Positions 6,559-32,476 of a stretch of DNA of 64,000 nt are shown here, in pieces (the first letter of the stretch is position 1; each line of letters starts with the position of its first letter). The stretch lies in IMG/VR virus record IMGVR_UViG_3300042558_003926, positions 1 to 64,000 of that record; one strand, given 5' to 3'. The position numbers and the translations under genes were made by a program. The DNA comes from a virus. Below the pieces are notes generated by a model that was not told where the DNA came from, made no database searches, and saw nothing but the letters and a program-made list of their open reading frames with translations.

Positions 6559-6834
6559 ATGGAAGAAACTATTAAATTGCCAGAAGAATTGGTATTGGAA
6601 GTTCAGGCTCTTAAAGATGAACTGATGGATAATGTTATTAAAGTTGGAAGACTTAGTGTACAGAAATCTTTTTATGAAAAAGATCTTGAAATGATTAACT
6701 CCCAGCTGGATAATCTTCATGACCAAGCCGCTTTAATATACCAGAAGGAGGAGGAATTACAGAAAAAGGTAATCTCCGAATATGGTAACGGTAAACTGGA
6801 TTTTGAGTCCGGTATTTTTACTAAAAACTCCTAA
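6559..6834 (+). CDS. Small coiled-coil hypothetical protein
   Basis: This 91-aa acidic protein is mostly helix-forming, with heptad-like spacing of Leu, Val and Ile from residue 5 to 75, and ends GKLDFESGIFTKNS. The start lies behind an A-rich leader (aaaaaaacaaaaaatgg), typical of translation starts here that lack a Shine-Dalgarno. No function is recognised. It is separated by 46 nt from the glycosyltransferase and is followed by the hairpin and late box that drive the next large virion gene. Confidence 0.7.
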   Translation: MEETIKLPEELVLEVQALKDELMDNVIKVGRLSVQKSFYEKDLEMINSQLDNLHDQAALIYQKEEELQKKVISEYGNGKLDFESGIFTKNS

Positions 6835-6847
6835 CCTAAACATAAAA

Positions 6848-6926
6848 AGCTCGTTCTGCTTTAGGTACTATTCTTCCTTTATTTTTTAAGGATATATAGA
6901 GAAAGTACTTAATGCAGAATGAGCTT
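6848..6926 (+). promoter_or_regulatory. Long inverted repeat enclosing a late promoter and hiding the start codon of the next gene
   Basis: Bases 6848-6870 (aagctcgttctgc...) and 6904-6926 (...gcagaatgagctt) are reverse complements at 20 of 23 positions; in RNA two of the three mismatches become G-U pairs. The 33-nt loop holds the GGATATATAGA box. The downstream arm contains the ATG at 6919. RNA reading through from upstream genes could fold and block translation; RNA started just after the box would lack the upstream arm. A nested cctaaa/tttagg repeat (6835-6840 and 6860-6865) might compete. Confidence 0.75.
6890..6900 (+). promoter_or_regulatory. Late promoter box GGATATATAGA
   Basis: TATATA at 6893-6898 lies 21 nt before the ATG at 6919, which suggests a start site near 6905 and a very short leader. 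The same box recurs upstream of many late genes in the window. Confidence 0.75.
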
Positions 6927-9408
6927 CTATCCGGAGAATAAATTTCCTAAAGACGGATCCCCAGTCAGAAACACAAACGGGGAGCAATATAATTTATCTA
7001 ATCAGAGATATAATTATCACGATGGACTTCAGAATACTTCTAAAGTTAAGAATTCATCTGTAGATAATCTTTTTTCCACCACTGGAGCAGCAGAAGCTAG
7101 ATCCAAACAAATAGGCTGTGGTGGATATCACCAAGTTACAGTAGATGGTAAAACATTCTATAAGCCATGCGAAACAGCTGAGTACTATGATCTAAGAATA
7201 GAACAGCTAGAAAGTGCATTAAACTTCACGTATATAGGTAATTACCGTGTTTTAACATGGGATAAACCATTTGAATATGTTACTTCTTTTAACGGATGGA
7301 TAATAGATGCCTCCAATAGTAACAACACGGCATCTATATTAAACGGGAATGATATATCTATAGATTTCAGATATAGTATAGATGGCACAACTTGGTCTTT
7401 ATGGACAAATGTAGGTACAGCTTTAGGTGGGTTAACCAATGAGTATTCTGAGCTTTTTGATATACCTTTAGATCCTAATAATAAGTTTTATCCCGAATTT
7501 AGATTTACGTGTGTTCTAGTTAATGACGACGGAACAATAGTTTATAACACGGAAGAGCCTATAGATCCTTCTATAGTTATAGTTAACTTCGAATTGGATT
7601 TGACCTATCAGGTTGCTCCGGAAGTGGTGATATACAGACCAGCACCGATATGTACTGATGAGGTTTCTACTAGACCTATACTTTTCTCCAACTGTAATTT
7701 TACCTTTAATCCTTATGCTGTTAATAGAGCATTAAACATGTATCAGGATTTAAGTTTAATGGTTAATAATGTTTTTGGACTAGAAGTTAATTATTATTCG
7801 GTACAACCTCAAGCTAGAGGAAAAGATGTGGTACTTAAAGAGTATACCATATTCGACGTAGTTGACGAGAAATGTATAAAGGCACTAGTTCCTCAAAATC
7901 AATTCCCGGATAATAAAATAAACTTTGATCCATTCGGTCTACAATTCGAAGAACCCTTTGAAATACAAATAGATAAGAGATACTTCGAATCTATATTCGG
8001 AAGAGGATCACAGCCAAGGAAAAGAGATATTATCTACTTCCCTCTAACTAACAGAATATATCAGATTAACTCTACTTATCTCTTCAGGGACTTTATGAAC
8101 GCTCCTGTTTATTTTAAGATAGAGCTTAAAAAATATACACCAAGATCTAACACTTATTTCCAAGATCCAGCATACAAGGAAGAGCTTGATGGTATATCTC
8201 TTACTACTAGTGATCTCTTTGGTGAGGAAGTTCATGCGGAGGAGATCAAAAGTTCAAAACCACAACAATATGCTACAACAATAACACAGATGTCTCAGGA
8301 CCCGATTAGATCTTATGTTTATAAGGATCTTTCTATTATAGAGTATGATTTAAATAATAACTGGACTATAGTCCTGAATAATTATTATGATTTGTACCAG
8401 TCTTTTGCTGATGATTATGAATTTACCTATGATCCTGGTAGATATAGAAATGCTGTTAGATATAAGGTGTTACCTAAATCAGATTCAACAACAGAACTGG
8501 CTTATACATGTTGGTTTAGTCTTAAGAATTTTTACGATAATCAACAACTTGCAAGAAGATCGTATCCGGTTATAAATCTAACCCTGGAGTCATCAACTGA
8601 TGAACTATTATATTTCAATAGCTACCCAAGAAAACATAATTTACAAGTTTGGCAATCCTATGATTCCAATCCTGAAGGATATGTTGCAATCAAGGGAGAC
8701 AAACTGCACTCTGGCGGATACGAGGTTAGAACGGTTATAGACGATTATCGATTTGCAGTAGATAACAATTCAACCGATTTCTCATTAGGAACTATCATTT
8801 GGAAAATGCAGAAAGCACAGAGCAGAAACTTAATTAGTGGATTATACCTTAATGATTTAGAAGAAATAAAGGGAATTAGAATAGATTTAATCCATTCCGG
8901 AGTTATGGATGAGTTAACAAATAATTTCCTAGAAGAAGGAAGTATAGTCATCCGCTTGAATGACACCATAATAAATTCTCCACTACAGTTTGTACCAGAG
9001 TTTGGTGATTGGTATGGGGTGGTCGTCAACTTCTCTAATGTTTATAAACAGATATCCGCAAATATTTGGGAGATGACATACGATCCAACAGATCCGAACG
9101 AGCAAACTAGTAAGCTTAAGAAAGTTCATGAATCGGTTAGAATGTTTACAAATAATATAATATTCGAAGCACCTACCGATGTGGTAACTGATACGCTTAG
9201 TCCTTTCTATGAAACTGATAACAATTCTTATAAAATCTACACCGGTCCTATATGGCTTAGTAATGTTAGATTATTTAAGAATATGATAGATATAGATACG
9301 CAATCCACTGTATTGAATCAAAATACGGTGAGAGATGCACAGTTAGCTCATATTATTGATAACGCAAAACCGCTTCTGAATATTCCGAAGTTTGCAAGAA
9401 ACAGATAA
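6919..9408 (+). CDS. Large virion structural protein, function unassigned
   Basis: This 829-aa protein has a soluble, beta-rich composition with many Asn, Asp and Tyr residues and no obvious transmembrane segment or coiled coil. A short Cys-containing segment CGGYHQVTVDGKTFYKPC lies near residues 67-84. It is driven by a late box and lies directly upstream of the small and large terminase genes, where T4-like phages keep neck and tail-completion genes. I cannot match it to gp13, gp14 or gp15. A neck, whisker or baseplate-associated role is possible; only virion structural is defended here. Confidence 0.7.
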   Translation: MSFYPENKFPKDGSPVRNTNGEQYNLSNQRYNYHDGLQNTSKVKNSSVDNLFSTTGAAEARSKQIGCGGYHQVTVDGKTFYKPCETAEYYDLRIEQLESALNFTYIGNYRVLTWDKPFEYVTSFNGWIIDASNSNNTASILNGNDISIDFRYSIDGTTWSLWTNVGTALGGLTNEYSELFDIPLDPNNKFYPEFRFTCVLVNDDGTIVYNTEEPIDPSIVIVNFELDLTYQVAPEVVIYRPAPICTDEVSTRPILFSNCNFTFNPYAVNRALNMYQDLSLMVNNVFGLEVNYYSVQPQARGKDVVLKEYTIFDVVDEKCIKALVPQNQFPDNKINFDPFGLQFEEPFEIQIDKRYFESIFGRGSQPRKRDIIYFPLTNRIYQINSTYLFRDFMNAPVYFKIELKKYTPRSNTYFQDPAYKEELDGISLTTSDLFGEEVHAEEIKSSKPQQYATTITQMSQDPIRSYVYKDLSIIEYDLNNNWTIVLNNYYDLYQSFADDYEFTYDPGRYRNAVRYKVLPKSDSTTELAYTCWFSLKNFYDNQQLARRSYPVINLTLESSTDELLYFNSYPRKHNLQVWQSYDSNPEGYVAIKGDKLHSGGYEVRTVIDDYRFAVDNNSTDFSLGTIIWKMQKAQSRNLISGLYLNDLEEIKGIRIDLIHSGVMDELTNNFLEEGSIVIRLNDTIINSPLQFVPEFGDWYGVVVNFSNVYKQISANIWEMTYDPTDPNEQTSKLKKVHESVRMFTNNIIFEAPTDVVTDTLSPFYETDNNSYKIYTGPIWLSNVRLFKNMIDIDTQSTVLNQNTVRDAQLAHIIDNAKPLLNIPKFARNR

Positions 9409-12107: not shown

Positions 12108-15100
12108 ATGGCAAATAAGGTAAAAATAGATTACTCTCAGTTTAGAGCATCCGGAGTCTACACCCTAGAATTTGATGCGTCCCAGAACGTAATCCTGACA
12201 TCACAGACAATACGTCTTGTTGTAGGATTTTCCAATAAGGGACCTTTCAATACACCGGTTTATATCCCAGATGTAACTACGCTAATTTCTATTTTTGGTG
12301 ACATCGATAGATCATTAGAAAATAAAGGATCTTTTTTCCAAAGATCTATATTAACATGTTTAAATGCAGGCCCAGTGTTTGCTTTAAATCTTTTAAGATT
12401 AAACGATGATACGGATTCAGCTAACCCTGATGAGGTTGATTACCAAGCATACTCACTTGACACCGAAGAGTATAATGGTGTTGTAACAAGCAGACTATAT
12501 TCATCCTACTATAATAAGGAAAGATTCTGGTTTGCTGATCCTAACTATTTCTTGGCTACACTTAGTGTTTCTGACCAGGGTAAATTGTTTAGCTTAGTTA
12601 ATCTAGGTAAATCACCTATGAGTATTATAGTTAGAAAATCTACGGATTCATCTAAGCCACTTAAGGGATATGACATATTCGCTATAGATTGGTATGGAGC
12701 TAACAATGTTCCTACTTTCATGCATCCATTTGACTACATGTCAGATTACTTTATTGATGTTATAGCAGTTTATGGAGATTGGACGAATTATCAGGCACTC
12801 TCTATAGATCCACAGTGGAGCACTTATTTTACCGAAAATGGATTTATTAAAAGCAGAATAGACAGCTTTTTATCTGAACCTGATGTTTCTATCGTTACAT
12901 CAGTAACAGGATGTATTATACCGGATTTCGTAGATCTTAATGGTGTTAATCAATATGTACAAACTCTGATTAATAATAGCACTCCATCTACTGGGTTATT
13001 CTGTGCTATAGACGAACAAGCATTTGATGATATTTGTGCTAATGGATCTAAAATAGATCTAGTCGGAAATCACCTTATCGACGAATTAACGGGAGATAGC
13101 GATTTACCTAGTCCTAGAATTAATTTCTTAAGCTACGATCAAGTTTTAGTTGCTGACTACCTATATACACAAAACGTAGTTGGAGTAACTGGAGCAACTG
13201 GATTTGTTAGTGCTACTGGTGCTACTGTTTATACATCAGGGGCAAAAGTTGGTACCTTATATACATTAACTGGAGTAACTGGTGCAACTGCAGGGGTTGT
13301 TTATCAATCTTTCGCTAATTACGACCCTAATGCTTATGATGGCGGATTACACTATCTTCAGACTTCTGGTACAGGCGGTACCGCTGGATATTTACAAACA
13401 GCTGCTCAGAAAAATGAACTTAAGACATTCTTAACTGTAACATCATCTAACGACCAGAAGTTCATTTTAGGTGTTGTATCTGGATATACCGGAGGTTTAA
13501 CTGGAGGATTGATAAATCAGTTTGCAGAGGGTGATTTAGTTAAGTTAAAAGTAACAGGAACTAAGGACGTATCTGGAGAATTAAGGATATTCTTCACCCA
13601 CCCATTAGATACCGGATTCTACCGATCACAAGGTATTACTGTAACACCGACATACAACTTAACTTCTTACAATACAGGAGCATCTGGAAGTAATCAACCT
13701 TTCTATACGGATGCTTATCAATTTGGTAATTCTGATTATGTTGATATCGTTAGCACATCTACACCTAATGGTGTAACTGGACCTAGCGCACCTCTCGGAG
13801 TTTCTAACGTATTAGTTGGATATAATGCTTCTTCTCTTTACCAGGATAACAAGTATGCTGAGATTACAGATGGCGATATCATCTGGACTAACAGTAGTGG
13901 ATCTAACGTTCAATATTTAGGGTTCGAACAAACTGTGGATAAGGATCAGTTCAATTATGTTAATACTAGAGCATTTACCAATGTTTCTTTAGCTGATACG
14001 ACAATAACAAATATAGCTGCATTCGGTACACCTTACGCATCTAACAACGTAGGTTTACCTGTAGGAACACAGAATACTGATATAGTTTCTCAGGAAGGTG
14101 CAATAAATGAATTTGTAGATTGTTCAAGAATCGACGTAACAACATTCTTGGTAACTCAAGATTCTAACGGAAACGCCCCTTTCTCGGTTGGAGATTTGGT
14201 GGTTTCAACTGACCTTGATATATGTGAGCCTTCTACCGGAAACAGACAAAATAGATTAGCTAAAATCACTACAGTTTCTGCTACAACTACTGCTGGAACT
14301 TTCAGAGTAACTTCAGCTAGACCGGTTCTTTATTATACTTCAGGATCTGGAGTTAGAGTTCAGAAATTTAAATCGATAGCTCAGTTTACAAGATCCTTTG
14401 ATTTTACATATCTGAGTGGATTCACAATGACAGACTGGCACAGACCTAATGGAAGTGATGCTAGAATATCTGAGATTCTTGATGTTATGTATAACACGAA
14501 TATTGCTAAGACATTAGCAGCTAAGGATGTTATATCTTACCGATACATCATTGATACATTCTCTGGGCAGATTTTACCAAACTCTAAATACCAGCTTTCT
14601 AGATTGGCTATGTTAAGACAACAGGCTTTGGCGATTATAAACGCTCCTTCTATGGCGCAATTTAGAGCTAGTACAGATCCAAGATTTACTGATGCTCCTA
14701 CTGCAGCTAATCCTTATCCGAGATTAAATACTGCTTATATAGCAGATGGCGGTAACTTATCTTTAAATCCGTCTTACACATTTAGCTTACCTTCAGAAGC
14801 TGATGGAGCTAAGTACGCAGCATTCTATTCTCCTTATATTACTGTAAGAGAAACTAATAGAAACGTTGAGGTACCACCTGCAGCATACGTTTCTAATAAC
14901 TTCCTTAGAAAATTCGCTAACGGAGAACCTTATGCTATTATAGCAGGTCAGAAACGTGGAGTAATTAGCGGAGGTAATATAGTAGGTGTTGAATATGACT
15001 TTACTGAAGAGGACAGAGGAAACTTAGAACCTTTCGGAATCAATCCAATCATCAAAAGAAGAGGAATTGGAGTAGTTATCTTCGGTAACCAAACTGCTTA

Positions 15101-15458
15101 TCAGCAAGTTAATTCAGCATTTAATCTTGTTCACGTTAGAGATCTATTGATTAGTGTAGAAAACGACGTTCAAGAGATCTTGGCTAACTACCTATTTGAT
15201 TTCAACGAAGATTCAATCAGACTAGAAATCAAAACATTAGTAGACAACTACCTAGATGGTGTTAGAGCTGGTGGTGGTATTTACGCTTACCAAACAATTA
15301 TGGATGCTTCTAATAATACCCCTGCAATCATAGATATGAACATGGGTATAATTGACGTCATAATAGAACCAGCAAGAGGAATCCAGAAGTTCATTAATCG
15401 AATCACGGTTACAAGAACTGGAGGAATTGCTTCTGGAGGATTCATACAATTTGTATAA
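12108..15458 (+). CDS. 18: Contractile tail sheath protein (gp18-like)
   Basis: The C-terminal about 300 residues carry the conserved sheath core, including RRGIGVVIFGNQTAYQ, a GVRAGGGIYAYQTIMD segment and DVIIEPARGIQKFINRI, which forms the interlocking arm in T4-type sheaths. At 1116 aa it is much longer than T4 gp18 (659 aa). The extra length is a central insertion with low-complexity Thr-Gly-Ala runs (GATGFVSATGATVYTSG, about residues 360-400) and beta-rich domains, probably displayed on the outside of the tail. It lies between terminase and tail tube, the normal T4-like order. Confidence 0.92.
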   Translation: MANKVKIDYSQFRASGVYTLEFDASQNVILTSQTIRLVVGFSNKGPFNTPVYIPDVTTLISIFGDIDRSLENKGSFFQRSILTCLNAGPVFALNLLRLNDDTDSANPDEVDYQAYSLDTEEYNGVVTSRLYSSYYNKERFWFADPNYFLATLSVSDQGKLFSLVNLGKSPMSIIVRKSTDSSKPLKGYDIFAIDWYGANNVPTFMHPFDYMSDYFIDVIAVYGDWTNYQALSIDPQWSTYFTENGFIKSRIDSFLSEPDVSIVTSVTGCIIPDFVDLNGVNQYVQTLINNSTPSTGLFCAIDEQAFDDICANGSKIDLVGNHLIDELTGDSDLPSPRINFLSYDQVLVADYLYTQNVVGVTGATGFVSATGATVYTSGAKVGTLYTLTGVTGATAGVVYQSFANYDPNAYDGGLHYLQTSGTGGTAGYLQTAAQKNELKTFLTVTSSNDQKFILGVVSGYTGGLTGGLINQFAEGDLVKLKVTGTKDVSGELRIFFTHPLDTGFYRSQGITVTPTYNLTSYNTGASGSNQPFYTDAYQFGNSDYVDIVSTSTPNGVTGPSAPLGVSNVLVGYNASSLYQDNKYAEITDGDIIWTNSSGSNVQYLGFEQTVDKDQFNYVNTRAFTNVSLADTTITNIAAFGTPYASNNVGLPVGTQNTDIVSQEGAINEFVDCSRIDVTTFLVTQDSNGNAPFSVGDLVVSTDLDICEPSTGNRQNRLAKITTVSATTTAGTFRVTSARPVLYYTSGSGVRVQKFKSIAQFTRSFDFTYLSGFTMTDWHRPNGSDARISEILDVMYNTNIAKTLAAKDVISYRYIIDTFSGQILPNSKYQLSRLAMLRQQALAIINAPSMAQFRASTDPRFTDAPTAANPYPRLNTAYIADGGNLSLNPSYTFSLPSEADGAKYAAFYSPYITVRETNRNVEVPPAAYVSNNFLRKFANGEPYAIIAGQKRGVISGGNIVGVEYDFTEEDRGNLEPFGINPIIKRRGIGVVIFGNQTAYQQVNSAFNLVHVRDLLISVENDVQEILANYLFDFNEDSIRLEIKTLVDNYLDGVRAGGGIYAYQTIMDASNNTPAIIDMNMGIIDVIIEPARGIQKFINRITVTRTGGIASGGFIQFV

Positions 15459-15497: not shown

Positions 15498-16052
15498 ATG
15501 GCAGGATTATCTCACTTTTCAAATTCGTTATCAGCAATAAATAGGTTTGAACCTGTTTATCTGAATCAATTCGAAGTTACTATTATACCACCAGCAGCAG
15601 TTGCCGGAGGTGAAATTTTACTTCAGCACGTATCCAAAGTAAGCGGTCTTTCTTTAGATAAGAACCCAGGACTTGCTACTCAGAAATTTAAGTTTGCTAA
15701 AAGAAATTACGCTGGAGCTAAGCCAGATCAGACATTCATGGATCTTAGTGTTAGTTTTTCTGTTAACTTGAACGATGATAACTCAATGTACGTTTTCAAA
15801 ACTCTGAGACAGTGGTCTGATTTAATTTACAATCCACTAACAGGAGCGATGGGATTAAAGAATGACTATGTAGGAACTATAGTAGTTAACATCTTTAATA
15901 AACAAGGTGATGTTTTTAGAAGGATTACTTGTAAAGATTGCTTTCTTACAAAGCCAATCTCTCCGATGAACCTAAACTATACATCAACTGACCTATACAA
16001 GATAGATGATATGGTATGGGCGGTGGACTACTGGGAGGATTTATTCCTATAA
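15498..16052 (+). CDS. 19: Tail tube protein, copy 1 (gp19-like)
   Basis: This 184-aa protein has the T4 gp19-type pattern: an N-terminal FEPVYLNQFEVTI strand, RQWSDLIYNPLTGAMGLKND and VNIFNKQGDVFRRITCKDCF, then a C-terminal WAVDYWEDLFL. It forms the inner tube inside the sheath. A gataaatataag element (15482-15493) 5 nt before the ATG at 15498 is probably too close to be a standard late promoter. A closely similar paralogue follows at 16070. Confidence 0.88.
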   Translation: MAGLSHFSNSLSAINRFEPVYLNQFEVTIIPPAAVAGGEILLQHVSKVSGLSLDKNPGLATQKFKFAKRNYAGAKPDQTFMDLSVSFSVNLNDDNSMYVFKTLRQWSDLIYNPLTGAMGLKNDYVGTIVVNIFNKQGDVFRRITCKDCFLTKPISPMNLNYTSTDLYKIDDMVWAVDYWEDLFL

Positions 16053-16069: not shown

Positions 16070-16645
16070 ATGGCAGGACTACCACATTTTACCAATTCAA
16101 AAGCAGCTATAAGTAACTTCGAACCGGTTTATTTAAATCAGTTTGAGGTTATAATAAATCCACCTGCTGGTATAGTAGACGCCGCTACTACCTTTAACGG
16201 TGAGGGGATATTAGCTCAACAAGTTAAATCCATAACGGGTTTAGCAGTAGATATTTCTCCTGCAGCAACAATAGAGCAGAACTATAAGTTTGCTACAAGA
16301 AGATATGCAGGGGGTGAACCATCTACCACGGATATGACTCTTTCGATGGAATTTGAGGTCAATCTTAATGATCAAAATTCCATGACTGTTTATAAAATAC
16401 TAAGACAGTGGTCGGATCTAATTTACAACCCTCTAACTGGAGCTATGGGGATTAAATCAGATTATGTTGGATCTATGGTTATTCAGGTATTTAACAAAAG
16501 AGGTGACGTTTTTAGAAGAATAAGAATACCTTCTTGCTTTTTAAGTGAAGCTATAAATGCAATGGAGTTAGATTATGAGACCCCAGCAATATATAACCTT
16601 ACTGCTAGTTGGATCTGTGATTACTGGGAAGATACCTTCTTATAA
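16070..16645 (+). CDS. Tail tube protein paralogue, copy 2 (gp19-like)
   Basis: This 191-aa protein aligns along its whole length with the preceding gene: shared FEPVYLNQFEV, RQWSDLIYNPLTGAMG, NKRGDVFRRI and WICDYWEDTFL. It differs by a short insertion after NPPAG (VDAATTFNGE) and many substitutions. It could be a second tube subunit, a tube initiator or cap (T4 gp48 and gp54 also derive from the tube fold), or a specialised end ring. A strong terminator follows at 16673-16699, so this gene closes the sheath-tube unit. Confidence 0.85.
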   Translation: MAGLPHFTNSKAAISNFEPVYLNQFEVIINPPAGIVDAATTFNGEGILAQQVKSITGLAVDISPAATIEQNYKFATRRYAGGEPSTTDMTLSMEFEVNLNDQNSMTVYKILRQWSDLIYNPLTGAMGIKSDYVGSMVIQVFNKRGDVFRRIRIPSCFLSEAINAMELDYETPAIYNLTASWICDYWEDTFL

Positions 16646-16735: not shown

Positions 16736-17848
16736 ATGGAAAATGGACTATCCCCTGAGGAGATCTTAAGAATGAAAGAAATAGAAGGGGGAATTGAATA
16801 TGATGACCCGATAAGTAAAGAGCAATCTTCAGTAGTCACGATAGAAAAAGAGGCTGATCCTAAACCGGAGGAAGTCAATAAACATGATTCAAATAATACC
16901 GAGCCAAAAAAAGTACAATCACCCGATCAGAAATTAAACGTGGTAGATCTGAATCAAAGCTTAAGTAAGAATTCTTTTGGTAAGGCTCAGAGTGTTCCTG
17001 AATCACCATCCTTTGATAGTGGATGGAAGAATCTACCTGTTAATATACTACCTTCTAAAGGCATGTTCTATCCGGATAAAACAAGGATTGCAATAAGAGC
17101 TGCGGAGGTAAGAGAGATTAGACATTTTTCTACTATAGACGAGGATGATAATTTAGATATCGAGGAGAAACTTAGTTATATCTTAGATAGATGTTTTAGA
17201 ATGGAATTCCCGGGAGAGGGAGTAGTTTCATATAAGGATCTAAAACAGGAGGATAGATTCTTTGTTATTATGGCCATAAGGGATTTAACATTCGTAAGGG
17301 GTGAAAATTCTATTATACTTAAAACGAAGAAAAAATGTAAACAAACACCAGAATGTCCATTCAACGAAGGTTTGGAATTGAGAACCGGTGTTTTAAGTTC
17401 ATATGATATAAACCGAGATATCCTAAAATATTACAATCAGGAGACAAGGAGTTTTATCTTTACCGTTAAAAAAACGGGTAAAACTATAGAGATGACAGTT
17501 CCTAGTATAGGAGTTACCCAAGCCATTTCTGATTTTGTTCGAAATGAATACAAGGGGAACAACCCTGTAGACGAGGGATTTATTCAAATAGCTCCCTTCA
17601 TCTTTAATGAATGGAGAAATTTAACTCCAGACAAGATTAGAATAAAATTAAAGGAATCTGATTTCTGGACCAAAGAAGAATACAGCTTATATTTTGGTCT
17701 TTCAGAAAAAATTAAAATAGGAACCACGCTAGAGGCAAAACAGAAATGTCATATTTGCGGTGATGAGGAGGTCACCGCTGATATTACCTTTCCCGGCGGG
17801 ATCAGATCTCTTTTCCTTATTTCAGATATCTTTAGAGAACTTCTTTGA
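16736..17848 (+). CDS. 26: Baseplate hub assembly protein, gp26-like (PF12322 type), ending at a CUU-UGA stop
   Basis: This 370-aa protein has a disordered acidic N-terminus (about 90 residues), then LPSKGMFYPDKTRIAIRAAE and EVREIRHFST, resembling the T4 baseplate protein gp26 family, which is needed to assemble the central hub. Two Cys pairs, CKQTPEC near residue 205 and CHICG near residue 339, could bind zinc. The last codons are GAA CTT CTT TGA. The gp51-like frame lies at +1 and stays open across this stop, so a +1 slip on CUU-UGA would add about 58 residues. T4 gp26 is shorter (208 aa). Confidence 0.72.
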   Translation: MENGLSPEEILRMKEIEGGIEYDDPISKEQSSVVTIEKEADPKPEEVNKHDSNNTEPKKVQSPDQKLNVVDLNQSLSKNSFGKAQSVPESPSFDSGWKNLPVNILPSKGMFYPDKTRIAIRAAEVREIRHFSTIDEDDNLDIEEKLSYILDRCFRMEFPGEGVVSYKDLKQEDRFFVIMAIRDLTFVRGENSIILKTKKKCKQTPECPFNEGLELRTGVLSSYDINRDILKYYNQETRSFIFTVKKTGKTIEMTVPSIGVTQAISDFVRNEYKGNNPVDEGFIQIAPFIFNEWRNLTPDKIRIKLKESDFWTKEEYSLYFGLSEKIKIGTTLEAKQKCHICGDEEVTADITFPGGIRSLFLISDIFRELL

Positions 17849-18023
17849 TATTAAATTTAGACTTTGGTATGAGCATAAGCTAGATCCAAATTGGCTAGAA
17901 TCTATACCTTTCTATGAATATCAAATATGGATCGATAAACTGAACGATACCATAGAAAAAGAAAATGCTGAAGCTCAGGCTGAGGGAGGGGTTACCCAAT
18001 TATTTAGTTTTACATCTAAGTAA
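17760..18023 (+). CDS. 51: gp51-like hub assembly protein frame (+1 relative to gp26; possible frameshift product)
   Basis: The conserved-looking part begins after 17847: DIKFRLWYEHKLDPNWLESI, PFYEYQIWIDKLN, then an acidic tail. The only in-frame starts are GTG 17760 and ATG 17763, 89 nt inside the gp26-like gene, and the peptide they add looks like out-of-frame coding. No ATG, GTG or TTG lies nearer. A +1 slip at CTT TGA (17843-17848) would read REL-L-DIKFRLW and fuse gp26 and gp51, which are adjacent hub-assembly genes in T4. Independent initiation at 17760 remains the alternative. Confidence 0.65.
   Translation: MMRRSPLILPFPAGSDLFSLFQISLENFFDIKFRLWYEHKLDPNWLESIPFYEYQIWIDKLNDTIEKENAEAQAEGGVTQLFSFTSK
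17840..17851 (+). promoter_or_regulatory. Candidate programmed +1 frameshift site CTT-TGA
   Basis: In the gp26 frame the bases are ctt ctt tga tat; skipping one t after the second ctt continues as gat att aaa ttt. CUU-UGA is the slip site used in bacterial release factor 2 mRNA. No strong Shine-Dalgarno-like stimulator is visible just upstream (cttta gagaa). Confidence 0.5.
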
Positions 18024-18042
18024 GACTTAAATATATACAGAT

Positions 18043-19584
18043 ATGTCAGATCCTAAACTAACAGCTCAAATGTTAGATCTCAGTAGAAATATTGAGAAGC
18101 TAACAGGTGCAGTAAAAACTAATACCGAAAGCACAGATCAACTACAGAAAGCTAATTCCGATTCAGATAAGGGACTCAAGGATGTTGTTTCCAATTTGAA
18201 AGACCTAAATTTCAAAGAGATATCTAAAGAATTTAAGGACATATCCAAAAACATAAAGGATTTAGATTTTAAAAAAATAGGAGAAGATTTTAAGGGCGTA
18301 ACTAAATCTTTTGGAGATATCGGAAAAAGCATAGGCGATATAAAAAGTTTAAAAGATATACCCAAAAGCTTTGGTGATATATCTAAATCTCTAGGAGGGA
18401 TAAAGGATCTTGGTAAAGATTTTAAAGGTATAAAGGATCTGGGTAAAAACATTGGGGACGTAACCAAGGACCTCAAGGGAGTTGGTAAAATCAAGGATAT
18501 AGTATCGGGAGGCGTCGGGAAAAAAATACTAGGTGCTTTTGCTGACGGAGGTCCTGTTGATGAAACCGGCAGCTATCTTGTTGGTGAAAGGGGACCGGAG
18601 GTTGTTAAGTTAAACGAAGGTAGTAACGTTATACCTAATGAAAAGTTAGTTAGTGCAGACCAAAAACTTAGTGAAAAAAAGGGTCCTACAGAAAAGCAAA
18701 TATCTAGGTATAAAGATTATCTGCTTTGGGAGTATCCAGACCACTATGAGGAATTCCCTGAATTTCTAGAGAGTGATGTCAAGGATTGGATGGACAGTAT
18801 GAGATATCATTCTCCGGAGGTCATAGATAGTTTATTGGAGGGTAGGGGCGGAACATTTACTAAGGAGGATGTAGCTAAACTAACTTCTCCGACAAAAACA
18901 GAATTACCAGATACACTTACTGCAGAAGGTGAATTATCGAAAAAAGATAAGAGAAAAAAAGAGAAGGGAGAAGAGAGAATAGCTAAGGATAAAGCCAGAG
19001 CTGAAAAAAAAGAAGCTAACCTAGAAAAGAGTGCAGAAAGAAAGGAGAAGTTTAGCGGTCTAATAGGGAACATAAAAGAATCGGGTAAGAGTGCTTTAGA
19101 GGGTAAGAATATTTCTAAAGTTACAGGCTTAGGAGCTGGATTACTATCTAAAAATATAAAGACCGATAATCCTCTATTAAAAAAAGCAGCGGATATCGGT
19201 ATTAAAACATCTGCGGATAAATTAGGGAAATCTTTAGAAAATCCGGAACTGCTTTCCAATGTGCTCCCTCTTAAAAAAGCCCCGAATAAAAAGATGGAGA
19301 AGGAAGAAAAGAAATCGGAAATATCTGAATCCATCGAACCTAAAAAAGCAGAACAACCAAAAGCATCTACCACCGAAGCTTCTACAGTTAAGAGCGAAAC
19401 CGTAGCATCAGATAAATCGGAGTCAGCAGCAGGAAAAAGTTCAGAAAAATCCGAAACAAATCTATCAAAAGCCGATATAGATGATATGAAATCGGCATTA
19501 TTTAGAATGGTATCCCTATTGGAGGGAACATTAATGGTATCTACTATAGAATCACCATTCCGACCAAATTCAAAAAGAATCTAA
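18043..19584 (+). CDS. Tape-measure-like / tail hub protein with GERGPEVV motif
   Basis: This 513-aa protein has residues about 45-165 made of irregular short repeats (DI/DL-x-K, FGDIGKS, LGKDFKG) predicted helical. Residues about 165-205 read FADGGPVDETGSYLVGERGP then EVVKL and GSNVIPN, a motif typical of the C-terminal region of phage tape-measure proteins. The rest is highly charged, Lys/Glu/Ser-rich and probably disordered. Its place after gp26/gp51 fits the T4 hub operon, where gp29 is the tape measure. It is short for a tape measure, so a hub-associated role is possible. An aaatatatacag element lies only about 10 nt before the ATG. Confidence 0.55.
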   Translation: MSDPKLTAQMLDLSRNIEKLTGAVKTNTESTDQLQKANSDSDKGLKDVVSNLKDLNFKEISKEFKDISKNIKDLDFKKIGEDFKGVTKSFGDIGKSIGDIKSLKDIPKSFGDISKSLGGIKDLGKDFKGIKDLGKNIGDVTKDLKGVGKIKDIVSGGVGKKILGAFADGGPVDETGSYLVGERGPEVVKLNEGSNVIPNEKLVSADQKLSEKKGPTEKQISRYKDYLLWEYPDHYEEFPEFLESDVKDWMDSMRYHSPEVIDSLLEGRGGTFTKEDVAKLTSPTKTELPDTLTAEGELSKKDKRKKEKGEERIAKDKARAEKKEANLEKSAERKEKFSGLIGNIKESGKSALEGKNISKVTGLGAGLLSKNIKTDNPLLKKAADIGIKTSADKLGKSLENPELLSNVLPLKKAPNKKMEKEEKKSEISESIEPKKAEQPKASTTEASTVKSETVASDKSESAAGKSSEKSETNLSKADIDDMKSALFRMVSLLEGTLMVSTIESPFRPNSKRI

Positions 19585-29169: not shown

Positions 29170-30843
29170 ATGGCTGGATTCGTCGAAAATAATAATCCCG
29201 GACAAACCCCTGTTATTCAGAGGATCAGGGATTCAGTAAGAAAATTAAGTACCTTCGGTATGAAGTACGATGACATGGTCATTCGTAACTCCCAAGCTGT
29301 TGGTGTAACTGAGGCATCGTTCCTTAATAAGAATAAATCCAATGTAGAGGATGAGAGCATGCTTTGGACCCTTGCTAAGCAAGATATATCTTCTAAACAA
29401 TTTATCGGGTACTTTGATAAGGACTATAAGGGTAAAAGAGATTATTTAAGAAAGTTTTCTCTTAATCCTGAAATAGAGTGGGTTTTAGATACGATATGCG
29501 ACGAGTCTATTTCTTATGATCCCTCTAATTTTTTCGCATATCCCGATTTTATAGATCTCAGTGATATTAACGAAAAGCTGAAGGATGATTTATATGAGAC
29601 ATTCAAGAAGCTTTATGATATATGGGGATTCTCCGATGATATTACCGCATGGCAATATTTCAGACAATTCATAGTTGATGGGTTTTTAGCTTTTGAGATT
29701 ATCTATGATGATAAAGGAAAGGAGATAGTTGGATTTAAAGAATTAGATCCAATATCTTTAATACCCAGTGTAGAAAAACAAATAGACGGATCCTTTATTA
29801 ATACATGGACTCAGTATCCTCAAGATCCTAAGAAAAAAAGAGTCCTTTATGACCCTCAGATAATTTACATTTCATACGCTAAGGGTAATGCTGTATCAAG
29901 AGTAAGCTACATAGAGAGATTAATAAGACCTTATAATATTCTTCGAATTATAGAATATACGAGAGTAATTTGGTCTGTAATGAACGCTTCATTTAAGCTA
30001 AAAATGACGGTTCCTATTGGTAGTAAATCCCAACAAAAGGGTATGCAAACACTGGGAGAACTAATGAGCATTTATAAGGAGGATATTCAATTGAATGACG
30101 ATAGTGGAGAATTAAGTATAGACGGAAGGCCTAAGATACAATTTTATAAAAACTACCTAATGCCTTCTGGCGTTAACGGAACGCCTTCTATAGAACCTAT
30201 AACAACAGATGGACCTAACCTTAACGACCCAGCTCCTCTAGCGTATTTCTTTGATAAATTTATACTTGAATCTAAAGTCCCTCCTTCAAGATTTCATAAC
30301 CCAGACGGAGGTACAACTTCTCCATATTCTAACGGGGCTGAGGGGTTAGACAAAGAAGAAATAAGATTTGCTAAGTTTATTTCTAGATTGAGATCAATAT
30401 TCCAGGAAATAGTAACAAAACCACTCTGGATACAAATGGTGAAGAAGTATCCTAAACTGGAGGATGATTTTATGTTTAAGAGTCAATTAGGACTTGATTA
30501 TTTCTCGGATAACCCATTTAAGTTAAATCAAGAAATTGATATAATAAACAAAAGAAAAGAGGCGGTAGCTGCTTTAGGTGGAATCATGGGAGATGAGGAA
30601 AAACCCTTTTTCTCTAATGCTTTCCTAATAGAAACATACCTAGGAATTTCTAAGCAAGATATTGATGCTAACAAGGAGGCATTAAAAAGGAAAGAGAAAG
30701 AGAAGAAGGAAAAAGAGAAAGAAGGAGAAGCTGGAGAAGAAGGAGGAGAAGCTGGAGCAGAATCCTCTACTGAAACAGCAGAGGAAACCCCTCCTGCAGA
30801 GGGAGAAGAAAAAACTACTGAAGAAACACCTCCTGCAACCTAA
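29170..30843 (+). CDS. 20: Portal vertex protein, copy 1 (gp20-like)
   Basis: This 557-aa protein carries T4-type portal features: RDYLRKFSLNPEIEWVLDTI, FKELDPISLIPSVEKQ, IIYISYAKGNAVSRVSYIER, ELMSIYKEDIQLNDDSGELS, GRPKIQFYKNYLMPSG and RLRSIFQEIVTKPLWIQMV. Twelve subunits form the ring through which DNA is packaged and to which the tail binds. The C-terminal about 50 residues are a Glu/Ala/Thr-rich low-complexity tail. A clear paralogue follows. Confidence 0.92.
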   Translation: MAGFVENNNPGQTPVIQRIRDSVRKLSTFGMKYDDMVIRNSQAVGVTEASFLNKNKSNVEDESMLWTLAKQDISSKQFIGYFDKDYKGKRDYLRKFSLNPEIEWVLDTICDESISYDPSNFFAYPDFIDLSDINEKLKDDLYETFKKLYDIWGFSDDITAWQYFRQFIVDGFLAFEIIYDDKGKEIVGFKELDPISLIPSVEKQIDGSFINTWTQYPQDPKKKRVLYDPQIIYISYAKGNAVSRVSYIERLIRPYNILRIIEYTRVIWSVMNASFKLKMTVPIGSKSQQKGMQTLGELMSIYKEDIQLNDDSGELSIDGRPKIQFYKNYLMPSGVNGTPSIEPITTDGPNLNDPAPLAYFFDKFILESKVPPSRFHNPDGGTTSPYSNGAEGLDKEEIRFAKFISRLRSIFQEIVTKPLWIQMVKKYPKLEDDFMFKSQLGLDYFSDNPFKLNQEIDIINKRKEAVAALGGIMGDEEKPFFSNAFLIETYLGISKQDIDANKEALKRKEKEKKEKEKEGEAGEEGGEAGAESSTETAEETPPAEGEEKTTEETPPAT

Positions 30844-30865: not shown

Positions 30866-32476
30866 ATGGCAGGATTTTTAGATTTTTTAAAACCAAATCA
30901 ATCAGCTTTAGGAAATATCCTAAAGAACCTTTCCAATGTTGCAAAATTTGGAATGCAATATGATGATATGGTTGTTAGAAACTCTCAGGCTATTGGTAAA
31001 ACTGAGGGATATTTTTTCAATCAAGAGAGCACTGGTTTTACTCAAAATGATGCCTTTCAGTGGACCGCTTCCTATCAAGATACCAAGGTAAGAAAATATA
31101 TTGCTTATTTTGACAAGGATTACATCGAGAAAAGAAATTATTTAAGAAAATTTTCTTTAAATGGTGAGATAGAGTTCATTCTAGATACCATAACGGATGA
31201 ATCGATCGTATACGACGATCGTAATTATTTCGCTCAGCCATCTTTTGTTAATCTTGACTTAAAGGACAAGATCAAAGATAAACTTGCTTCGCATTACAAT
31301 AGAATATACAATGTATTTGGATTTCAAAATACAATTCTTGCATGGCAATACTTTAAGCAATTTTTAATTGATGGATTTTTAGCATTTGAAATAATTTACG
31401 ATAACAAAGGAAGAGAGATAATAGGATTTAAGGAACTAGACCCAACCTCACTTCAGCCTGTGGTAGAGAAGGTAGCAGAAAATGAATATAGACAGTTTTG
31501 GATTCAGTACCCGAAGAATCCACAAATGACAAGAAAGCTAACCAATGAGCAGGTGATCTATATTTCTTATGCTAAGGGAAATACCATTTCAAGAGTTAGC
31601 TATATAGAAAGACTGGTTAGATCATACAATATTCTAAGAATAATGGAAAATTCCAGAGTTATCTGGAACGTAATGAATGCTTCCTATCGACTAAAATTCA
31701 TCATACCTATAGGTAGTCAATCTCCGCAAAAAGCCATGCAAACATTAGGACAGTTGATGTCCAATTATAAGGAGGATATTTCTATTAACGATTCTTCTGG
31801 TGAATTAACAATAAACGGAAGACCAAAGGTACAATTTTATAAGAACTATCTCTTTCCTGAAAAAGATGGACAGAGCCCAGATATATCATCTCTTAATTCG
31901 GCAGGTCCAGATTTTAACGTAATGGAGAATGTCGTATATTTTTTCAATAAATTAAAAATGGATTCTAAGATTCCCTATGCTAGATTTGCTTCTAAAAATA
32001 CTACGCCGGGAAATTATCAGACTAGCATAGATCAGCTAGAGAGGGATGAGATAAGATTCGAGAAATTTTTAAGAAGATTAAGATCCATATTCCAGGAGAT
32101 TCTAGTAAAACCCCTCTATATTCAAATGTGTTTAGATTACCCTGAACTATCCAGGGATAAAGGATTCAAAGCAAATATAGGATTAAATTATAATAGAGAT
32201 AGTGAGTTCGAGGAAATGGTAGAACTTGCTGGGTTTACAAAAAGGACCGAGTTTATAAACGGGTTAAAAGAATTGAAAGTTAAAATAGGAGAGGAAGAAA
32301 AAGGATACTTCGATCCGGATTTCTTGATTCAAAGATTCCTAGGCATGAATCCAGACCAGATAAAAATGAATCAAAAGTACAAAGAGAAAGAGGAGAAGGA
32401 GGCAGAAAAAGCTAAAGAAGAAGGTGGAGGAGAAGGCGAAGAATCCGGAGGTGGGGGTCAAACCGTTACTCTATAA
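30866..32476 (+). CDS. Portal vertex protein paralogue, copy 2 (gp20-like)
   Basis: This 536-aa protein is collinear with copy 1: RNYLRKFSLNGEIEFILDTI, FKELDPTSLQPVVEKV, VIYISYAKGNTISRVSYIER, GRPKVQFYKNYLFPE and RLRSIFQEILVKPLYIQM. Both copies are full length with all visible blocks intact, and both end in low-complexity acidic or Gly tails. Either could be the working portal, or the ring could be mixed. The start lies 22 nt after copy 1. Confidence 0.9.
   Translation: MAGFLDFLKPNQSALGNILKNLSNVAKFGMQYDDMVVRNSQAIGKTEGYFFNQESTGFTQNDAFQWTASYQDTKVRKYIAYFDKDYIEKRNYLRKFSLNGEIEFILDTITDESIVYDDRNYFAQPSFVNLDLKDKIKDKLASHYNRIYNVFGFQNTILAWQYFKQFLIDGFLAFEIIYDNKGREIIGFKELDPTSLQPVVEKVAENEYRQFWIQYPKNPQMTRKLTNEQVIYISYAKGNTISRVSYIERLVRSYNILRIMENSRVIWNVMNASYRLKFIIPIGSQSPQKAMQTLGQLMSNYKEDISINDSSGELTINGRPKVQFYKNYLFPEKDGQSPDISSLNSAGPDFNVMENVVYFFNKLKMDSKIPYARFASKNTTPGNYQTSIDQLERDEIRFEKFLRRLRSIFQEILVKPLYIQMCLDYPELSRDKGFKANIGLNYNRDSEFEEMVELAGFTKRTEFINGLKELKVKIGEEEKGYFDPDFLIQRFLGMNPDQIKMNQKYKEKEEKEAEKAKEEGGGEGEESGGGGQTVTL

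Follow-up and report, generated by a model that had tools for sequence, protein, structure and literature searches.

Gene order and reading frames at the locus

The window, which is the whole stretch of 64,000 nucleotides analysed here, belongs to a virus record of 289,651 bases (IMG/VR record IMGVR_UViG_3300042558_003926). The features that concern this study all lie on its plus strand:

12108..15458, +, tail sheath protein (context)
15498..16052, +, tail tube protein, copy 1 (context)
16070..16645, +, tail tube protein, copy 2 (context)
16736..17848, +, gp26-like ORF encoding the short form, 370 aa, of the PF12322/T4 baseplate-hub-chaperone type, from PF12322 matches in relatives and from fold matches
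17757..17778, +, 5' hairpin GCGGTGAT-GAGGAG-GTCACCGC, with a stem of 8 bp in the window and its end 10 nt ahead of the proposed shift site
17789..17794, +, proposed +1 shift site TTT CCC (UUU to UUC slip, or CCC to CCN), invariant in the core lineages
17790..18023, +, +1 frame from the proposed shift site to TAA: gp51-type C-terminal domain of the predicted 428-aa long form (P0003), from phrog_634, a profile match and a structural model
17795..17848, +, dual-coded stretch, in which the 0 frame gives the short form C-terminus and the +1 frame the start of the extra domain, from codon-level conservation
17846..17848, +, TGA at which the short form ends, rejected as the shift site
18043..19584, +, candidate tape measure protein immediately after the locus, with PHROG tape measure matches as good as 2.5e-6

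The gene order is therefore sheath, two tube genes, gp26-like gene and tape measure candidate, and a sizeable ORF lies directly downstream of the locus in 45 of 46 relatives. Other long-tailed phages have their frameshifted tail assembly chaperone, G/GT, encoded in the interval between the tube and tape measure genes (PMC5009743). The parallel with tail assembly chaperones that an earlier note on the window had drawn agrees with the gene's position between tube and tape measure genes. As a side observation, the duplication of the tail tube gene resembles that of a portal-type ORF pair in the same window, where two adjacent and similar ORFs are found at 29170-30843 and 30866-32476; the first matches the portal family (phrog_213) and the second is, by eye, an apparent duplicate.

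The gp26-like ORF terminates with the codons AGA GAA CTT CTT TGA, exactly where the earlier note had placed them (TGA at 17846-17848), and gp51-like sequence indeed runs on behind it in the +1 frame as DIKFRLWYEHKLDP..., closing at the TAA at 18021-18023. This +1 ORF has 58 aa after the TGA, beginning with DIKFRLWYEH. TGA ends 5 of the 57 genes of the window, and CTT TGA ends the gp26-like ORF only. The earlier note had proposed a +1 programmed frameshift joining the two frames; from the constraint on the +1 frame and the gene context, such a frameshift is very probable.

Position of the proposed frame change and the upstream hairpin

A search of viral contigs and phage records provided 281 loci that include the end of the gp26-like gene. 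Of these, 101 are unique; several isolates among these related jumbo phages infect Bacteroidota. The gp51-like motif is present in the +1 frame in 96 of the 101 unique relatives and in other frames in none (0/101). The remaining five (two Lak phages, LR745206, LR756502 and LR756504) lack the exact motif, yet the +1 reading continues in them. The +1 continuation across relatives is not a matter of chance. In one of the loci, Lak-B5 (L083), an in-frame TAG lies in the +1 domain after the gp26-like stop, so that the domain stays open only if TAG codes for an amino acid, which agrees with the alternative code of Lak phages. An ATT just past the TGA was considered as a non-canonical start and rejected, the codon not being conserved (CTT, CTG and GTT are also seen).

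The +1 frame is under protein-level selection well before the TGA, from about 50 nt upstream of it, in 51 diverged lineages. Synonymous variation is almost lacking in the final 17 codons of the 0 frame, while their +1 translation is also conserved and reads SDLFSLFQISLENFF, followed by DIKFRLW after the TGA. In a core set of 48 lineages, clustered at 90% identity, entropy at the three codon positions of the 0 frame averages 0.57/0.63/0.95 just upstream of TTT CCC, 0 at TTT CCC itself, 0.62/0.21/0.27 and 0.44/0.02/0.17 between TTT CCC and the TGA, and 1.14/0.47/0.14 directly after the TGA. The pattern thus flips at TTT CCC, which indicates that a second frame is read, since the first position of the 0 frame is the third position of the +1 frame. 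Moreover, pairwise differences that change the 0-frame residue and are silent in the +1 frame amount to 4.5-5.2% before TTT CCC and to 46% and 39% after it, the level for comparison being 37% in the region coding in the +1 frame only. The match to phrog_634 (gp51) likewise begins upstream of the TGA. A stop codon at -62..-60 relative to the TGA, just before TTT CCC, shuts the +1 frame in 27 of 90 loci, and together with the constraint from about -50 this places the shift at or next to TTT CCC (17789-17794).

This hexamer, which starts 54 bases before the CTT-TGA put forward in the earlier note, is invariant in all 48 core lineages, though CCC makes up only 11% of the Pro codons in these genes. 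It is also found in phages of about 20-35% protein identity, namely PAU, LR745206, LR756502, LR756501 and the isolate pT24. Other phages carry TTT followed by another codon starting with C, which is CCT in L251 and L254, CAA in LR756500 and the Lak phages, and CGA in MaF61. UUU_C is the element that they have in common; in MA9V, PTm1 and LR756504 UUU_C is absent. From these comparisons, the switch point is likely to be TTT CCC.

The earlier note had placed the shift at CUU-UGA (17843-17848) and ascribed it to a slip of the kind used in the release factor 2 gene, and had suggested looking for CUU-UGA in homologues. The motif is in fact kept, as CTT-TGA or TTT-TGA, in 82 of the 101 unique relatives, the gp51-like sequence does continue in +1, and AGAGAA or GGAGAA three nt upstream of CTT recalls the spacing in prfB (motif in PMC12421855). 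The conservation of CTT-TGA, however, is a by-product of +1 coding, because its bases (TTC TTT GAT) encode Phe-Phe-Asp in that frame. A shift at this site cannot account for +1 coding upstream of the TGA, and it would leave the invariant TTT CCC and the hairpin without a role. Nor is the stop codon conserved throughout: the stop after CTT is absent in L039 (CTT GGC) and in L048 and L207 (CTT CGA), where the +1 reading and TTT CCC upstream of it are nevertheless retained, and TAA replaces TGA in L082, L251, L254 and L280 with the +1 reading intact. No phage-encoded release factor, such as an RF2 that might tune a stop-dependent shift, was found in the virus record. We therefore regard a shift at CUU-UGA as very improbable, and the REL-L-DIK peptide proposed as its signature should then not be made; the junction is expected to read ...ADITFP-AGSDLFSLFQISLENFFDIK.

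Another reading is that translation of the gp51-type domain begins independently within gp26, at a codon such as GTG 17760 or a non-AUG codon, and yields a separate protein, with the GAGG of the hairpin loop as ribosome binding site. The earlier note had correctly located the +1 starts of the window inside gp26, but at 89 nt, whereas the only listed start is GTG 17760, 86 nt before the TGA; the +1 peptide upstream of the TGA, which it considered atypical, is actually conserved and part of the gp51-type domain. An almost invariant GAG GTC upstream resembles a Shine-Dalgarno core, many loci have GTG at -86 or ATG at -83, and MaF61 has ATG codons at -8/-5. The GTG and ATG bases, though, follow from the conserved Cys-Gly-Asp codons of gp26, no candidate start is conserved across lineages, and the conserved +1 peptide of MaF61 already begins upstream of its ATG codons. 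Furthermore, the +1 stop codon seen in 27 of the 90 loci falls between the GTG/ATG candidates and TTT CCC. Ordinary internal initiation is excluded in 31 of the 90, as these loci have no ATG, GTG or TTG in the +1 frame anywhere from the closest stop upstream to -48. An internal start is thus improbable, if somewhat less so than a shift at CUU-UGA.

The same frame could also be reached by a -2 slip, or by a +1 slip at neighbouring codons (NNN or GGG after CCC). The sequences confine the shift only to about -59 to -48, GGG is found at -48 in 42 of the 48 core lineages, and -2 shifting is known in phage Mu (PMC5009743). But TTT CCC alone is invariant, and by inspection a -2 slip offers no plausible re-pairing for tRNA-Phe or tRNA-Pro, which makes these routes very unlikely beside a +1 slip at TTT CCC.

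A stem of 6-8 bp lies upstream of TTT CCC. At least 4 bp can be formed at this position in 47 of 48 lineages, against a median of 7 at other positions. With the register fixed, 81% of the pair cells are formed; sliding the arms gives at most 59%, and none of 5000 arm permutations reaches the observed pairing. When synonymous codons were shuffled within each gene, 48 of 50 lineages folded better than their shuffles at p<=0.05 and 35 at p<=0.01, counts that come from related lineages and hence do not represent independent tests. The stem also shows compensatory changes, to AGTG/CACT (L040), GATG/CATC (L061) and AATG/CATT (L207), and distant phages form the same stem with other letters (GTGTGG/CCACAC in LR745206, ACTGTGAC/GTCGCAGT in L254). 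L047, L220, PAU (four pairs) and MaF61 (not found) have a weak hairpin or none, and GAGG occurs in the loop of nearly all lineages. Indeed, the hairpin is conserved beyond what the protein needs.

In synthetic constructs, an upstream hairpin stimulates +1 and lowers -1 shifting on 70S ribosomes (PMC6321510). The hairpins assayed in vitro in that study were adjacent to the E site; that of the window is at a greater distance from the slip site, and for this reason its stimulatory role is one that we infer. As regards a downstream stimulator, the helices that RNAalifold proposes in the dual-coded stretch lack any change on both sides and are uninformative. The purine-rich loop (17765-17770) is partly complementary to UUUCCC (17789-17794), making an alternative or tertiary pairing possible; such a pairing appears in some single-sequence folds (L207, L091).

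Protein family and its counterparts in T4 and cyanophages

The short form of the window has itself no match to PF12322, but among 28 aligned relatives 10 do match this family, the best at 3.4e-8. For the +1 domain, there is a match to phrog_634 (8.5e-5) and a profile match to the C-terminus of cyanophage and T4 gp51 (E 5.1e-8). Profile comparison of alignments A1 and A2 with single T4 gp26 or gp51 sequences yielded nothing strong, and the family link to T4 rests on Pfam and PHROG profiles together with the comparison of alignments A5 and A6.

The model of the long form (P0003, 428 aa) has a mean pLDDT of 70.9 and displays a helical C-terminal domain at 366-416, whose first helix spans the position of the TGA. 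In the alignment used for the model (A3), the short-form rows are misaligned in their last ~20 residues, and the switch region, with pLDDT of about 49-59, is unreliable. Foldseek retrieved T4-type baseplate hub proteins, such as those of SP-15 (8e-9) and CP220 (4e-4), while known tail assembly chaperones (G or T) appeared only at E 0.8-1.2, which is not significant; no PDB fold match was found.

In T4, gp26 and gp51 are listed as hub assembly chaperones, with no gp51 in the particle (PMC3004832). Each has a PF12322 match (8.8e-64 and 3.9e-52), they match each other weakly, and gp51 carries an additional phrog_634 C-terminal domain. They are paralogues of one family, PF12322, encoded by the following genes:

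6803-8229 of the T4 locus (L094), opposite strands, T4 genes 26 and 51, PF12322 paralogues

The earlier note rightly described the two genes as adjacent, but they do not share a strand. Campylobacter phage CP220 has two PF12322 matches, like T4.

A further arrangement is found in P-SSM2, S-PM2, HTVC008M, Cr30 and phiM12, where a single PF12322 gene is followed by a gp51-type domain in the -1 frame at its end. The cyanophage-type loci examined comprise L293, L294, L297 and L298 (P-SSM2, S-PM2, Cr30 and phiM12), L296 (HTVC008M) and L304-L383. The -1 slippery heptamer TTTTTTC is present at the gp26 end in 66 of 66 unique cyanophage-type loci, and HTVC008M, Cr30 and phiM12 carry TTTTTTT there. U_UUU_UUC or U_UUU_UUU before the gp26 stop is thus a candidate -1 frameshift site; an ATG also follows this stop, making reinitiation possible. 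Cyanophage gp51 has been described without the first ~200 residues of T4 gp51 (Sullivan et al. 2010, PMC3037559), an absence that a -1 fusion would explain.

Proposed mechanism and its relation to known systems

We read the locus as the gene with which a T4-related jumbo phage encodes a tail assembly chaperone in two forms, and in which a +1 slip at UUU_CCC would be promoted by the hairpin; from the sequence comparisons we assign this reading a probability of about 0.83. Most ribosomes would translate the gp26-like ORF as far as the TGA at 17846, giving the 370-aa short form, and a fraction would slip by +1 at UUU_CCC and produce the 428-aa long form with its extra helical C-terminal domain. 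The peptidyl-tRNA-Phe could move from UUU to UUC during a pause at the rare CCC codon, or the peptidyl-tRNA-Pro could move from CCC to CCN, with the same product. The hairpin, refolding behind the ribosome, would probably promote the slip. Lambda G/GT would suggest, by analogy, a role in coating the tape measure protein for the short form and one in recruiting tube subunits for the long form. The expected tryptic junction peptide of the long form is CHICGDEEVTADITFPAGSDLFSLFQISLENFFDIK.

Like lambda G/GT (PMC5009743), the gene lies between the tube or major tail protein gene and the tape measure gene, and has a predicted short and a predicted long form with a common N-terminus. It differs in the direction of the shift, +1 instead of the usual -1, and in belonging to another, PF12322-like family, without significant fold match to G or T. 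Other directions have been listed for such genes, with the haloarchaeal myovirus HSTV-2 as very likely +1 and Mu as -2 (PMC5009743).

The putative slip codon has its closest counterpart in the influenza A PA-X site, UCC_UUU_CGU (PMC3498833), as in both UUU is followed by C, so that tRNA-Phe can re-pair on UUC, and the A-site codon is presumably slow (CCC in the window); the window differs by the bacterial ribosome and the upstream hairpin. With prfB CUU_UGA (PMC12421855) the locus shares the +1 direction, and in both an upstream duplex may push the ribosome forward (SD:anti-SD in prfB, the hairpin in the window), but the shift proposed for the window involves no stop codon, and the CTT-TGA nearby is rejected as its site.

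With respect to T4 (PMC3004832), the short form is gp26-like and the extra domain is related to the gp51 C-terminus, whereas T4 has two paralogous genes on opposite strands, with no frameshift between them. The cyanophages (P-SSM2, S-PM2 and others) share the single PF12322 gene with an out-of-frame gp51-type domain at its end, and differ in having this domain in the -1 frame after U_UUU_UUC/U. We consider it fairly probable, though less so than the reading of the locus itself, that a two-product chaperone of the T4 superfamily is realised in three ways: by +1 shifting at UUU_CCC with a 5' hairpin in the window and related jumbo phages, by -1 shifting at U_UUU_UUC/U in cyanophages and their relatives, and by duplication into a short gp26 and a long gp51 in T4 and CP220. 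G-T frameshifting has been reviewed as widely conserved except in T4 (Atkins et al., PMC5009743), and T4 may have replaced tail-chaperone frameshifting by gene duplication.

The frameshifted tail chaperone is known as a kind; the novelty would lie in a UUU_CCC site for +1 shifting accompanied by a selected 5' hairpin, in the family of the protein and in the link to T4. Our search of the open-access literature found no report of frameshifting in gp26/gp51.

In several isolates, the second ORF is annotated as a separate gene: PAU gp94 (L091), BPT24_131 of pT24 (L384), MA9V1_007 (L088), ORF-023 of PTm1 (L092) and ORF156 of MaF61 (L093). The annotated starts in these five phages fall inside or after the conserved +1 peptide, and are probably artefacts that are not used. 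If our reading is true, the annotation of the second ORF would be corrected in isolates such as PAU, pT24, PTm1 and MA9V-1, and the +1 site with its upstream hairpin would constitute a bacterial model open to direct assay. Moreover, gp26 and gp51 would gain a testable function as tape-measure chaperones in short and long form, and the exception of T4 would become a gene duplication of the same tail-chaperone system.
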